The notes under the pieces were generated by a model. That model worked only from the letters and a program-made list of their open reading frames with translations, did not search any database and was not told where the DNA came from. A DNA stretch of 64,000 bases from Amycolatopsis viridis (GTDB lineage Bacteria > Actinomycetota > Actinomycetes > Mycobacteriales > Pseudonocardiaceae), in assembly GCF_011758765.1 (NCBI RefSeq), contig NZ_JAANOU010000001.1, positions 3,658,001 through 3,722,000 on the forward strand, written 5' to 3'. Below are positions 1-44,020 of the stretch, piece after piece (position 1 is the stretch's first letter; each line of letters opens with the position of its first letter). The translations under genes and the position numbers were made by a program.

Positions 1-1596
<1,596 letters not shown>

Positions 1597-38155: not shown

Positions 38156-39571
38156 GTGACCGTGACCGATCCCGCCGTGCCCAGCGTGGACGAGGACAGC
38201 CCGCAGCAGAGCCTGAGCACCCGGGCCGCCCGCAACCTGGCGACCACGACCAAGTCCGTCCCCCAGATGCAGGCCATCACGTCCCGGTGGCTACCGCGCC
38301 TGCTGCCGTGGGTGGAGGCGTCCGGCGGTGCCTATCGCGTCAACCGCCGGCTGTCCTACGCCGTCGGCGACGGCCGCGTGACCTTCGTGACCACCGCGGA
38401 CCGCGTCGAGGTGATCCCCGCCGAGCTGGCCGAACTGCCGATCCTGCGCGGCTTCGACGACCACGACGTGCTCGCCGCGCTCGCCGGCCGGTTCGAGCAG
38501 CGCGACTACGAGCCCGGCGAGGTGATCGTGGAGTTCGGCAGCTCCTCGGACCAGGCGTTCCTCATCGCGCACGGCAAGGTCGGCAAGGTCGGTCCCGGCG
38601 AGTACGGGGACTTCACCAACCTCGGCGTGCTCGCCAACGGGGACCACTTCGGCGACGAGTCCCTTGTGGACGGCCAGAGCATCTGGGAGTACACCGTCAG
38701 GGCGGTTACCCATTGCACTGTGCTGGTGCTCGAACAACGCGGGTTCGACGAGCTGCTGGAGCAGTCCGCGGCGCTGCGCGAGCAGATCGAGGCGTACCGC
38801 GCCCGCCGGCTGGCCGCGGGCAACGAGCACGGTGAGGCGGAGATCGAGCTGGCCTCCGGCCACACCGGCGAACCGGAACTGCCCGCCACGTTCGTCGACT
38901 ACGAGCTCTCCCCGCGCGAGTACGAACTCAGCGTCGCCCAGACCGTCCTGCGCGTGCACACCCGCGTCGCCGACCTCTACAACAAGCCGATGAACCAGAC
39001 CGAGCAGCAGCTGCGGCTGACCATCGAGGCGCTGCGCGAACGTCAGGAGTCCGAACTCCTCAACAACGCAGAATTCGGGCTGCTGCACAACGCCGACGTC
39101 AAGCAGCGCCTGCACACCCGCACCGGCCCGCCCACCCCGGACGACCTGGACGAGCTGCTCGCCGCGGTGTGGAAGGAACCGGCGTTCTTCCTGGCCCACC
39201 CGCAGGCGATCGCCGCGTTCGGCCGGGAGTGCAACAGCCGCGGAATCTACCCGGCCGGTACCGAGTTCCACGGACACCACGTGCCGTCCTGGCGCGGCGT
39301 GCCGATCCTGCCGTCCAACAAGATCCCGGTGTCGCCGACGCGGACCAGTTCGATCCTGCTGATGCGGGTCGGCGAGCAGAACCAGGGCGTGATCGGCCTG
39401 CACCAGACCGGCCTGCCGGACGAGGTCGAGCCCGGCCTGTCGGTGCGGTTCATGAGCATCGACGACAAGGCGATCATCTCCTACCTGGTGTCGGCGTACT
39501 TCTCCGCGGCCGTGCTGGTGCCCGACGCGCTGGCGGTGCTGGAGCACGTCGAGATCGGCCGCGAGGGCTGA
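38156..39571 (+). CDS. Family 2B encapsulin shell protein A
   Basis: A 471-residue nanocompartment shell protein. Family 2B encapsulins assemble HK97-like cages in which each subunit carries an inserted cyclic-nucleotide-binding-like domain. Residues 1-90 are the N-terminal arm ([30 protein letters not shown]), about 90-205 the cNMP-like domain ([40 protein letters not shown]), and from about 228 on the HK97-type core beginning with [29 protein letters not shown]. The phosphate-binding cassette (about 162-187) has WEY where classical cNMP binders have the Arg. GTG 38156 is used; GTG 38162 is alternative. A second shell gene follows 38 bp later. Confidence 0.93.
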
Positions 39572-39609
39572 CGCGGAGCCCGGAACAGCGACACGAGGGG
39601 GTGGGCGCC

Positions 39610-41007
39610 TTGACCGCGACCCGGCACACGTTCCAGCACACCGGGACCCGGCTGAGCCTGGGCACGGCGGCGGCCCGCAAGCTCGCCAGCACCACCAAGT
39701 CGGTGCCGCAGAACCAGGCGGTCACCAGCCGCTGGCTGCTGAGCCTGCTGCCGTGGGAGGAGACCGAAGCCGGCACCTACCGGGTCAACCGGCGGCTCAC
39801 CCACGCCACCGGGCGGGGCCGGGTCGCCTGCGTCGCCGAGGCGGGCCGGATCCGGGTGGTGCCGGCCAGCCTCACCGAACTACCGCTGTTCCACGGGTTC
39901 GGCGACCCGGTGGTGCTGACCGCGATCGCCGATCGCCTGGTGCAGCGCGAGTACCGCGCCGGGGAGGTGATCGTGACGGCGGGCGCACCGGCCGCCGAGG
40001 CGCTGATCGTCGGACACGGCAAGGTGCGCCGGATCGGCCGGGGCGAGTACGGCGACCAGGTGAGTCTCGGGGTGCTCGCCGACGGCGACTTCCTCGGGCA
40101 GCAGGTGCTCGACGCCGAACCGCGGCCGTGGGAGTACGGCGTCCGGGCGGAGACACCGGTGACGGTCCTCGCGCTGCCGCGTCCGGACATCCTGTCGCTG
40201 ATGAACGCCGCGCCGTCGTTGCGGTCGCATGTGGACGCTCTGCGGCAAGGGGCGCACCGGCCGCGGAACAAGTACGGGGAGACGGCGATCGAGCTGGCCT
40301 CCGGCCACACCGGCGAACCGGAACTGCCCGCCACCTTCGCCGACTACGAACTGTCCCCGCGCGAGTACGAGCTCGGCGCAGCCCAGACCATCCTGCGCGT
40401 GCACACCCGCGTCGCCGACCTCTACAACCAGCCGATGGACCAGACGGAACAACAGCTGCGGGTGACGCTCCAGGCGCTGCGCGAACGGCAGGAAGCCGAA
40501 CTGCTCACCAACCCGGAATTCGGGCTGCTGCACAACGCCGCCCCGGGCCAGCGCCTGCACACCCGCACCGGCCCGCCCACCCCCGACGACCTGGACGAAC
40601 TGCTGGCCCGGCGCCGCAAGACGCAGTTCTTCCTCGCCCACCCGCGGGCCATCGCCGCGTTCGGCCGGCAGTGCGCGGCACGCGGACTCGCGCCGGAAAG
40701 CACCGAAGTGGACGGTCACGTGGTGACCACGTGGCGCGGTGTGCCGATCTTCCCCAGCGACAAGATCCCGCTCTCCCGCACGCAGACGACCTCGATCCTG
40801 GCGATGCGGACCGGGCTGCGCAGTCAGGGCGTGATCGGGCTGCGGCAGACCGGGCTGCCGGACGAGGCCGAGCCCGGCGTGACCGTGCGGTTCATGGGCA
40901 TCGACCACCGCGCGATCGTGAAGTACCTGGTCACCGCGTACTTCTCGGTCGCGGTGCTGGTCCCCGACGCGCTCGGGGTGCTCGAGCACGTGGAGGTGGG
41001 ACGGTGA
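39610..41007 (+). CDS. Family 2B encapsulin shell protein B
   Basis: A 465-residue paralogue of shell protein A with the same order: N-terminal arm ([30 protein letters not shown]), cNMP-like domain, and HK97-type core ([29 protein letters not shown]). The core is very similar to A, while the cNMP-like domain differs much more ([26 protein letters not shown]; cassette [22 protein letters not shown]). Its N-terminus lacks the acidic stretch of A. TTG 39610 is preferred over in-frame GTG 39601 because GAGGGGG at 39595-39601 is 8 bases before it. Both proteins probably co-assemble. It overlaps the prenyl synthase start by GTGA. Confidence 0.92.
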
Positions 41008-42047
41008 CCCGCACGGACCCGGCCGGGACCGCGGCGCGTACGGCGGACGAGATCCTCGCGTGGAGCCGCGACCGGGTCGACCCCGCGCTGCGCACGGCCG
41101 TGGCACACCTGCCGGAGTCGATGCGGCCGGCGGCCGCCTACCACTTCGGATGGGCCGACGAGACCGGCGCCCCGCGGGCCGCGGGCAGCGGCAAGGCCGT
41201 CCGCCCCGCGCTGGTGCTGCTGTCCGCGCAGGCCGTCGGTGGGATGCCCGGGGCGGCGCTGCCCGCCGCGGTGGCGGTCGAGCTGCTGCACAACTTCTCA
41301 TTGCTGCACGACGACATCATGGACGGCGACGAGACGCGGCGGCACCGACCGACCGCGTGGAAGGTGTTCGGGGCGGGCACCGCGATCCTCGCCGGGGACA
41401 GCCTGCTGATCGAGGCATGGGACGTGCTCGCGGCGAGCGGACACCCGTCCGCGCGCGAGGCGCTGCGGGTGCTGGGCGCGGCCGCCCAGGACCTCATCGA
41501 GGGCCAGGCCGTGGACCTGGCGTTCGAACGCCGCGAAGAGGTGAGCCTGGCCGAATGCCGCGCCATGGCCGAGGGCAAGACCGGGGCGCTGCTGGGGTGC
41601 GCCTGTGCGCTGGGGGCGTTGCTCGGCGGGGGCGGCCCGGAGCAGGTCGCGCGGCTGCGCCGGTTCGGCGAGGCCGCCGGGCTGGCGTTCCAGCTGGCCG
41701 ACGACCTGCTGGGCATCTGGGGCGATCCGGCGGTCACCGGGAAACCGGTGTTCTCGGACCTGCGGAACCGGAAGAAGTCCCTGCCGGTGGTGGCGGCACT
41801 GACCTCGGGCACGGCGGCCGGTCGGGAGCTGGCGTCGCTCTACGCCCGGCCCGGTGAACTGACCGGCGCAGAACTGGCGCGAGCGGCACGGCTGGTCGAC
41901 GAGGCAGGCGGCCGGACGTGGAGCCGGACGGAGAGCGCAGCGCTGCTCGACCGCGCACGCGGCCACCTGCACGCCGCCGCAGCGGAGCCGCGGGCCGCCG
42001 CCGAGCTGGAGACGCTCGCCACGCTGCTCGCCGACCGCGACCACTGA
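41004..42047 (+). CDS. Polyprenyl diphosphate synthase, probable encapsulin cargo
   Basis: A 347-residue trans-isoprenyl diphosphate synthase that condenses IPP with an allylic diphosphate. The first Asp-rich motif is DDIMD (103-107) after [11 protein letters not shown]; the second is DDLLGIWGD (233-241), in the form seen in actinobacterial encapsulin-associated prenyl synthases rather than a strict DDxx[15 protein letters not shown] carries the Lys/Arg that bind IPP. The N-terminus before the fold is only about 20 residues, so no long disordered targeting tail is visible. GTG 41004 overlaps the shell B stop. Chain length of the product (C10, C15 or C20) cannot be read from the sequence. Confidence 0.92.
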
Positions 42048-42079
42048 CCCGGTCCCCATCCCTGGAACGGAGCACACCG

Positions 42080-43354
42080 ATGACGTTCACCGCAGCGGAG
42101 AGCATCCTCGCCGCGCACCGTCCGGGCCGGCCCGGCCCGGGCGAGGTGCTGGTCGCCGACGAGGTGCTGTGGCCGGACCGTCCGTCGCTGCGGTGCCCGG
42201 CCGCCGGACTGCTCGACGGCGAGCTGCGGCGCCGGGGGATCACCCCGGCGCGCGGCCACCTCTACACCGACACCGACCACGCCGCCGCGGTCACGCTGCG
42301 GGCCGTGCTGCAGGGCGCAGGCGGACCGGCCGGGCTGGGTGTCGCGGCGACCGGGGAGGTGACCGCCCGGACGGCGGCCGAGGTGAGCGCCGCGATGGCC
42401 GCGGTCCTCGCCGTCGCCGGACCGCCGCGGTCAGTGCTGCTCGCCGCGCCACGCTCGTTCTGCGCGGGCGTGGAACGCGCGATCGAAATCGTCGAACGGC
42501 TTCTCGAGCGCCGCGGCGGGCCGATCTACGTGCGCAGGGAAATCGTGCACAACCGGCACGTCGTCGACGGGCTCCGCGCGCGCGGCGCGGTGTTCGTCGA
42601 CGAGCTGGACGCCGTGCCGCGCGGAGCGACCGTCGTGTTCTCCGCGCACGGGGTCTCCCCCGCGGTCCGCGCCGAGGCGGAGCGGCGCCGGCTCAAGGTC
42701 GTCGACGCCACCTGCCCCCTGGTGACCAAGGTGCACGCCGAAGCCCGCCGCTTCGCCGGGCAGGGCGACACGGTGCTGCTGATCGGGCACGCCGGGCACG
42801 ATGAGGTCGAGGGCACCCTCGGCGAGGCGCCGCGGCGGACGATCCTGGTGGAGTCGGCCGAACAAGCCCGCCGGGTCCGGGTGCCGGACCCGGCCCGGGT
42901 GTCCTACCTGACGCAGACCACGCTGGGTGTGGACGAGACCGCCGAGGTGATCGCCGAGCTGCGCGCCCGCTTCCCCGCGCTGCGCGGCCCGGACACCGGC
43001 GACATCTGCTACGCCACCACCAACCGTCAGGACGCGCTCCGGTCGGTCGCCCGCGACACCGATCTGGTCCTGGTGGTGGGGTCGGCGAACTCGTCGAACT
43101 CGATGCGCCTGGCCGAGCTGGCGCGGCGCTGCGGCACCCCGGCCCACCTGGTCGACGACCCGCGCGGCATCCGGCCGGAGTGGCTGGCCGGCATCGAGCG
43201 GATCGGGCTCACCGCCGGTGCCTCGGCACCGCCGGCCCTGGTCGACGCGGTGATCACCGCGCTCGGCGGGCTGGGGCCGCTCACCGTCGGCGAACGGGAG
43301 ACCACCCGGGAAACGGTCCACTTCACCCTGCCCCCGGCCGTACGCCGACACTAG
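42080..43354 (+). CDS. ispH: 4-Hydroxy-3-methylbut-2-enyl diphosphate reductase (IspH) with N-terminal extension
   Basis: A 424-residue protein; ordinary IspH is about 310. IspH reduces HMBPP to IPP and DMAPP with a [4Fe-4S] cluster, the last step of the MEP pathway. Cluster cysteines are Cys128 (SFCAGVERA), Cys212 ([11 protein letters not shown]) and Cys310 (GDICYATTN); [27 protein letters not shown] and [10 protein letters not shown] are the substrate-site motifs, all intact. The extra 116 N-terminal residues ([45 protein letters not shown]) look folded, not disordered, and I do not recognise them. It is 32 bp after the prenyl synthase, which would use its products directly. Confidence 0.93.
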
Positions 43355-43365
43355 CGTGCCCACCG

Positions 43366-43688
43366 CTCCAGGCAGCCTGTTGGCCGCTCCGGGCCGCGTG
43401 TTCACCGTTCCGGGCCACGTGTTGGCCGCTCCGGGCGACGTGTTCACCGCCCCGGGCGACGTGTTGGCCGCTCCGGGCCGCGTGTTGGCCGCTCCGGGCC
43501 GCGTGTTGGCCGCTCCGGGCGACGTGTTGGCCGTCCCCGGCGACGTGTTGACTGCTCCGGGCAGCGTGTTCACCGCTCCGGGCGACGTGTTCACCGCTCC
43601 GGGCAGCGTGTTCACCGCTCCGGGCAGCGTGTTGGCCGTCCGGGTACGTGTTGGCCGCTCCGGGCCACGTGTTGGCCGCTCCGGGCGT
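43366..43688 (+). repeat. 21-bp tandem repeat array, locus 2 left arm (15 units)
   Basis: Fifteen units, with GTGTT at 43398, 43419 and every 21 bp to 43629, then 43648 (a 2-bp deletion) and 43669; a degenerate unit begins at 43377. The plus-strand unit is approximately GTGTTSRCCGCTCCGGGCSRC. It starts 12 bp after the ispH stop. It is the reverse complement of the family in locus 1 (7804-8084) and of the right arm at 43837-44020. Confidence 0.93.
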
Positions 43689-43836
43689 AGCGGACTCGCA
43701 CCGCACGTCGCGCCTGGCCTGTGAGCTCGGCTGTAGAGCGTCCAGCAAGACAAGTTGGGCGAACACGAGCGTGTGGGGCCCGGATCGTGCGCGCCGGGGA
43801 GAGGCCAGCTCACCGCCCGGCGGACCCGCCGCCCCG

Positions 43837-44020
43837 ACCGCCCAACACGCCGCCGGGAGTGGCGAACACGGTGCCCGGACGGGCCAACACGCTGTCCGGA
43901 GCGGCGAACACCCTGCCCGGAGCAGCAAACACGGTGCCGGGAGTGGCGAACACGGTGCCGGGAGTGGCGAACACGGTGCCGGGAGTGGCGAACACGATGC
44001 CCGGACGGGCGAACACGCTG
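43837..44020 (-). repeat. 21-bp tandem repeat array, locus 2 right arm (9 units, inverted)
   Basis: Nine units in the opposite orientation, AACAC at 43844, 43865 and every 21 bp to 44012. With the left arm they form inverted arrays separated by about 150 bp (43689-43836) of unique sequence in which I see no gene. RNA or single-stranded DNA through this region could pair extensively with itself. Confidence 0.92.

Follow-up and report, generated by a model that had tools for sequence, protein, structure and literature searches.

The stretch of DNA analysed here (the window: 64,000 nucleotides of Amycolatopsis viridis, whose genome is one contig of 5,684,261 bases) carries, at positions 38156-43354 of the plus strand, four tightly spaced open reading frames (ORFs). 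They encode two Family 2B encapsulin shell proteins, Enc1 and Enc2, a prenyl diphosphate synthase (PT) and the 4-hydroxy-3-methylbut-2-enyl diphosphate (HMBPP) reductase IspH. As an earlier note made from the sequence had claimed, they form a tight operon: 38 bp separate Enc1 from Enc2, the PT start overlaps the Enc2 stop as GTGA, and 32 bp separate PT from IspH. The start codons are gene-caller output and approximate, and Enc2 could also start at an in-frame GTG at 39601. The flanking genes called on either side are encoded on the opposite strand, so that the operon reads as a closed four-gene unit; pattern scans for promoters and terminators gave no match.

Against NF041163 (encap_f2b, cut-off 400) Enc1 scores 775.2 bits and Enc2 704.2 bits, and of five shell matches found genome-wide these two alone pass the cut-off. 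Each joins an HK97-type shell domain (SrpI-like PF19307, 459.3 and 433.2 bits, respectively) to a cyclic-nucleotide-binding-like domain (CBD) inserted in the E-loop (PF00027; residues 116-203 of Enc1, 58.3 bits; residues 113-199 of Enc2, 53.9 bits), the architecture that the note had read in both. Among solved structures, Enc1 comes closest to 9bje and 9bix, and Enc2 to these two and 9bhu; the motifs in the alignment lead us to assign 9bje to Enc1 and 9bix to Enc2 of S. lydicus. Motif 1 reads AVWKEP (TVWK-like) in the window Enc1 and RR-RKTQ (RRRK-like) in Enc2. It is of the Enc1 type (VWK, once VWR) in all 14 first shells examined and of the Enc2 type in all 14 second shells and all 10 lone shells. 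At motif 2, in the luminal loop, the window Enc1 resembles Sl-Enc1 and the window Enc2 is not close to Sl-Enc2, by the reference letters printed in PMC12407261. According to the account of the S. lydicus pair given there (Dutcher, Andreas and Giessen 2025), Enc1 and Enc2 co-assemble into mixed shells and Sl-Enc1 does not assemble alone, a case that the Enc1-type motif 1 of the first shells matches. The motif types of both window shells, together with this co-assembling pair, bear out the proposal of a two-component Family 2B shell.

The two shell genes appear to be mosaics. Indeed, 44 of 51 fourfold third positions are identical between the window genes in residues 229-328, against 16/39 in residues 1-90, 18/39 in 91-225, 17/23 in 329-385 and 23/37 beyond, and this core tract holds exact Enc1-Enc2 DNA matches of 48, 38 and 35 bp. 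Among 11 PT-type loci, Enc1 and Enc2 are more alike in residues 226-325 within a locus (mean 0.82) than between loci (0.59), a value that none of 2000 shuffles of the pairing reached. The same test gave 0.67 vs 0.52 for the A-domain and 0.68 vs 0.52 for the C-terminal part (0/2000 each), 0.64 vs 0.50 for the N-arm (1/2000) and 0.62 vs 0.56 for the CBD (66/2000). In ten more two-shell loci with no over-cut-off PT nearby, five of them from only two genera, the tract stands at 0.91 within and 0.57-0.75 between loci.

Trees of the separate DNA regions were made from 18 two-shell loci (36 genes; L014-L016, L018, L133, L137, L152, L153 and L155 were left out as close relatives). For residues 332-385 a single split (99/94) parts Enc1 from Enc2, and no Enc1 (0/18) is nearest to its own Enc2. 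The tree of residues 229-328 needs 16 label changes; in it, the closest relative of Enc1 is the Enc2 of the same operon in 11 of the 18 loci and not in the other seven, and the window pair is joined at 99/95. In the N-arm, CBD and C-terminal trees, the corresponding counts are 4/18, 3/18 and 5/18. The plain reading of these trees is that an ancient Enc1/Enc2 split has been kept in the A-domain, while the core has been repeatedly gene-converted inside operons, and this homogenisation looks to be common to PT-type and other two-shell loci. Such conversion qualifies the whole-protein trees, in which some Enc2 are placed among Enc1. Core homogenisation favours mixed shells and would fit interchangeable subunits; it is no proof of co-assembly, because similar neighbouring genes can convert for other reasons.

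IspH, one of three copies in the genome, scores 306.1 bits against PF02401 and 431.4 against NF002188 (cut-off 420). Residues C128, C212, C310, H157, H240, E242, T280, S338, N340 and S382, which we match to the three cluster cysteines and other active-site residues of E. coli IspH, are invariant in 29 aligned sequences, so that the operon IspH should be an active enzyme. In a tree of 43 rows (L012, L021, L028 and L073, where IspH was split or missed by the gene caller, were omitted), seven housekeeping rows lie on one side of a branch at 100/100. The hopanoid, encapsulin, methylerythritol phosphate (MEP)-operon and PT-only rows, the window IspH included, lie on the other. Judged by this tree, the operon IspH is not a housekeeping copy and sides with the IspH of hopanoid clusters. 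Fifteen of 16 encapsulin rows group at 92/84 with three MEP-operon and two PT-only rows; the remaining encapsulin row, from Glycomyces, is a long branch outside this group.

The first 117 residues of IspH gave no Pfam match even at E 10. However, profile-profile comparison of ten short extensions of this kind with 15 hopanoid N-domains gives an hhalign probability of 98.5. All ten score 18.8-37.6 bits against the hopanoid-domain profile (the window extension 33.4-34.4), the best of 500 shuffles reaching 10.1, and when the search is turned round, 14 of the 15 hopanoid domains clear the inclusion threshold. In the alignment the first part of the domain is gone from the extension, while the last helix and a core around CPAAxLL are preserved. 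A VDMES-like segment, which we take to be the catalytic segment of HpnG, is missing in 10/10 short extensions, and variants of it (V/A-D-M/T-E-S/T) stand in six hopanoid alignment rows. Structure prediction for the extension by itself gives a folded model (mean pLDDT, the predicted local distance difference test score, 78.9), and all 50 Foldseek matches listed for this model are nucleoside phosphorylases or nucleosidases, with weak E-values. On these profiles and this predicted fold, the extension is an eroded remnant of an HpnG-type domain. The remnant occurs in 8 of 16 shell-linked IspH (shorter in L023) and is missing in the other eight (L013-L016, L018, L025, L031 and L017, the last with a low-complexity stretch in its place). 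It is also found in L011 and in G019, a genome in which no 2B shell can be recognised, so that it is not shell-specific. Its presence there and its absence from half of the shell-linked IspH indicate that it is probably not a docking tag.

The hopanoid form of this domain is seen in the same genome. The hopanoid cluster of A. viridis (L138, C1:2550001-2569900) carries in succession a PT, squalene-hopene cyclase, an HpnG-IspH fusion and HpnH. Curated models place HpnE, squalene-hopene cyclase and HpnH around PT and IspH, and two upstream squalene-synthase-like genes are read tentatively as hpnC and hpnD. The N-terminal part of its IspH (491 residues) scores 72.9 bits against the HpnG model TIGR03468, below the cut-off of 187.1, and 43.4 against PF01048, over the cut-off of 25.1. 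The fusion is present in the 15 hopanoid-type IspH rows used, and the shell-free loci made of PT, a gene of ~630 residues and IspH are hopanoid clusters. Clusters of ispH with shc and hpnH are known from Acidobacteria, and no HpnG-IspH fusion is described in the accessible part of that work. Since the decay of a domain to a remnant cannot be undone, we infer that the hopanoid-type fusion came first and that the form in the encapsulin operon arose from it.

PT passes the cut-off of the cargo family NF041169 (f2_encap_cargo4; 479.7 bits, cut-off 450) and scores 197.5 bits against PF00348; its translation has the motifs DDIMD and DDLLG. The PT of the hopanoid cluster in the same genome stays under that cut-off, at 421. 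In a PT tree of 47 rows with no outgroup (L015, L016 and L018 omitted as near copies, and no row from L027), one branch (99/100) sets ten hopanoid rows apart. The 37 remaining rows form two groups, one of 17 (the Streptomyces-like shell PTs with Crossiella) at 100/100 and one of 20 (13 with IspH, six shell-linked rows with no IspH, and G019) at 97/82. The best guess for the PT product is farnesyl diphosphate (FPP), because the hopanoid relative should make FPP for squalene; geranylgeranyl diphosphate (GGPP) is possible.

Table 1. Features of the encapsulin operon in window coordinates
Feature	Position	Strand	Evidence
Enc1, Family 2B encapsulin shell protein, first component	38156..39571	+	GTG start; NF041163, PF19307, PF00027; motif 1 VWK; best PDB match 9bje
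Enc2, Family 2B encapsulin shell protein, second component	39610..41007	+	TTG start; NF041163; motif 1 RR-RK; PDB relatives 9bhu, 9bje, 9bix
PT, prenyl diphosphate synthase, putative cargo	41004..42047	+	GTG start; NF041169; PF00348; DDIMD and DDLLG
IspH (HMBPP reductase), 424 residues	42080..43354	+	PF02401, NF002188
IspH N-terminal extension, 117 residues, eroded HpnG-like nucleosidase domain	42080..42430	+	hhalign, alignment, predicted fold
Enc1 residues 229-328, core tract homogenised with Enc2	38840..39139	+	fourfold third positions, DNA matches, tract tree
Enc2 partner of the homogenised core tract	40285..40584	+	same DNA matches, fourfold sites, tract tree
Enc1 A-domain block, residues 332-385, with diagnostic motifs 1 and 2, separating Enc1 from Enc2	39149..39310	+	fourfold sites, region trees

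Three further features touch these genes or their possible cargo. An Rfam match to Sernc350 (RF02735, a Saccharopolyspora antisense sRNA; 194 bits) lies at 38193-38700 on the minus strand, antisense to the start of Enc1; conserved coding sequence alone may account for it. Just behind IspH stand two arrays of 21-bp repeats (43353-43686 and 43831-44020), the second resembling the reverse complement of the first, and in G249 (L134) the translated stretch from PT to the contig end also looks repetitive. Finally, the window starts inside a two-domain terpene cyclase gene (1-1467, minus strand, running beyond the window; L144 2275-4467), the only PF19086 gene found in the genome. It reaches 1142.7 bits with NF041168, the model of encapsulin-cargo cyclases, short of the cut-off of 1200, and its C-terminus, FPARLGMSALHLA, resembles by eye a degenerate version of the GPTGLGTSAAR motif of operon-linked cyclases.

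How common is the arrangement? In a sample of 296 genomes of the class, PTs that pass the NF041169 cut-off occur in 37. A 2B shell match stands no more than 10 kb away in 33 cases, the exceptions being G019, G141, G087 and G016. Of these 33 PT-encapsulin loci, 22 belong to the Streptomyces-like group f20/g24, have a single shell each and never have IspH beside PT (0/22). IspH stands beside PT in 5/33, that is in five of the 11 loci outside this group (G000, G121, G071, G291 and G099, the shell being cut by the contig end in the last two). As to the other six, G232, G275, G189 and G241 have no IspH beside PT; in G249 none is seen in the 480 bases between PT and the contig end; and G250 (L133), with both shells and PT in place, keeps behind PT an IspH remnant with an internal loss (L133 9468-9644, minus strand). 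The PT of G250 groups at 100/100 with that of the Streptomonospora locus L010. In G019, the PT and IspH genes stand together with DXS-like and IspG-like genes (the last two named by clustering with scored members). Its only shell match spans profile positions 209-448 and misses the CBD part, and for this reason we read G019 as having no 2B shell.

Starting from IspH instead, shell, PT and IspH occur together in 11 of the best 80 of 560 IspH-relative loci found in named genomes. Within these best 80, the order shell-shell-prenyl synthase-IspH, which the note had proposed to search for, was found again with adjacent shells in L009 (Prauserella), L010 (Streptomonospora) and L023 (Virgisporangium). 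Six loci (L013-L018) have one or two ORFs between the shells that are labelled cyclase-type by clustering with two model-scored proteins, and L025 (Stackebrandtia) and L031 (Glycomyces) have a single shell with PT and IspH. IspH beside PT is therefore a recurrent minority form of PT-encapsulin loci: the arrangement is uncommon, as supposed, in that it accounts for 5/33 loci, and less singular than supposed in that it recurs in several families.

The reading that we favour, with a probability of roughly 0.6, is that of a mixed Enc1/Enc2 shell with PT inside as cargo and an IspH of HpnG-IspH fusion descent in the cytosol, supplying isopentenyl diphosphate (IPP) and dimethylallyl diphosphate (DMAPP). 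In this species Enc2, of the type that assembles alone in S. lydicus, and Enc1, of the type that does not, would co-assemble into one shell, in which PT, as the likely cargo, would condense IPP and DMAPP, most likely to FPP and possibly to GGPP. IspH would be a specialised extra HMBPP reductase derived from a hopanoid-type HpnG-IspH fusion, the HpnG part having since decayed. It takes electrons from protein donors, ferredoxin or flavodoxin, and most likely sits in the cytosol beside the shell, where these could reduce it and where it would raise the supply of IPP and DMAPP when the operon is on. We infer this outside position since the extension is not shell-specific and since a closed shell would exclude ferredoxin and flavodoxin.

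Several observations weigh against parts of this reading. Shell regions other than the core are also more alike within operons, although less so, and shared codon habits may be part of the signal. The IspH tree gives no resolved branching between the encapsulin group and the hopanoid rows. As for PT, the cargo synthases treated in PMC8346489 are reported there to have unannotated disordered N-termini of 50-100 residues, whereas the alignment with hopanoid PTs reveals no such region in the operon PT, which, like its operon relatives, is only ~5-10 residues longer N-terminally; its Pfam domain begins at residue 62, within a region that shell-free PTs also have. Moreover, the PT of G019 passes the NF041169 cut-off, beside IspH, with no recognisable 2B shell, so that the family name does not prove packaging. 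The earlier claim that PT is the shell cargo thus stays plausible by operon and family, and PT is probably packaged, but the long N-terminus expected of such a cargo is missing.

Could IspH be packaged as well, so that HMBPP reduction and C5 condensation would share one compartment, as the earlier note had suggested? Its place directly behind PT in five of the 11 loci outside the Streptomyces-like group would fit this, and the difference between the two luminal loops could allow two cargos to be loaded, a suggestion made in the text of PMC12407261. However, IspH is missing, lost or not seen in the other six loci, the extension is absent from half of the shell-linked IspH and present in G019, and a closed shell would shut out the electron donors. 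We therefore consider joint packaging improbable, and an IspH inside the shell is not what the loci point to.

It seems just as improbable that PT and IspH are only co-regulated cytosolic enzymes and that the real cargo comes from another locus; the two-domain terpene cyclase, 37 kb upstream, would be a candidate. Cyclase-type genes do lie inside the shell operons of L013-L018, L023, L129, L131 and L137, the operon-linked cyclase of L129 also scores below the cyclase cut-off (1160.1), as the window cyclase does, and PT has no long N-terminal tail. Nevertheless, PT sits in the operon and passes the cargo-family cut-off, and the window cyclase is distant and lacks an exact GPTGLGT motif. Lastly, separate homomeric particles of Enc1 and Enc2, which their identity of only ~64% (0.42-0.58 in CBD and N-arm) might suggest, are very improbable given that Enc1 of S. 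lydicus needs its partner to assemble, the two forming mixed shells (as described in PMC12407261), that 10/10 lone shells are Enc2-type and that the core is homogenised within operons.

Beyond the mixed shell with PT inside and IspH outside, we put forward, tentatively and at slightly less than even odds, a wider proposal. Two-component 2B shells would be obligate hetero-assemblies kept by recurrent gene conversion, core 229-328 being overwritten in each operon and the ancient distinction between Enc1 and Enc2 residing entirely in block 332-385. The mixed shell of the PT-IspH branch would contain a prenyl synthase akin to the FPP synthase of hopanoid clusters and would be fed by an IspH from a hopanoid-type HpnG-IspH fusion. 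If true, this would narrow the ability or inability to assemble alone to a block of ~54 residues and would explain the mixing of Enc1 and Enc2 in whole-protein trees. The operon would then also offer a natural example of a precursor enzyme recruited out of membrane-lipid synthesis into a prenyl pathway beside a protein cage, on which one could study possible channelling of terpenoid precursors by encapsulins. Both the HpnG remnant carried by IspH and the mosaic history of the 2B shell genes look new, no report of either having been found in the open-licence papers searched.

In comparison with known systems, the operon combines features of three. In the two-component 2B system of S. lydicus, too, the shell genes are neighbours, contain CBD inserts and show the Enc1 and Enc2 types of motif 1. 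That system is described in PMC12407261 as of the xylulose kinase (XK) type with no known native cargo, whereas the window shells are followed by PT and IspH; the same source counts 503 two-component 2B operons, the PT operon type among them. The PT-type 2B operons, of which PMC8346489 (Andreas and Giessen 2021) reports 900, likewise have a 2B shell adjoining a polyprenyl synthase and, as stated there, often encode terpenoid-precursor genes. The pairing of a PT encapsulin with a terpenoid-precursor gene is thus already published, except for IspH itself, which the main text of that paper does not name (0 occurrences); the window PT differs from the cargos presented there in having no disordered N-terminus of 50-100 residues. 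Finally, actinobacterial hopanoid clusters (the host's own L138, L019, L024, L026, L030 and others) likewise contain a PT homologue and an IspH whose N-terminal domain derives from HpnG. Unlike the window operon they have no shells, and squalene-hopene cyclase sits between their PT and IspH; their HpnG part is longer and retains the V/A-D-M/T-E-S/T segment, which the shorter extension of the window IspH has lost.

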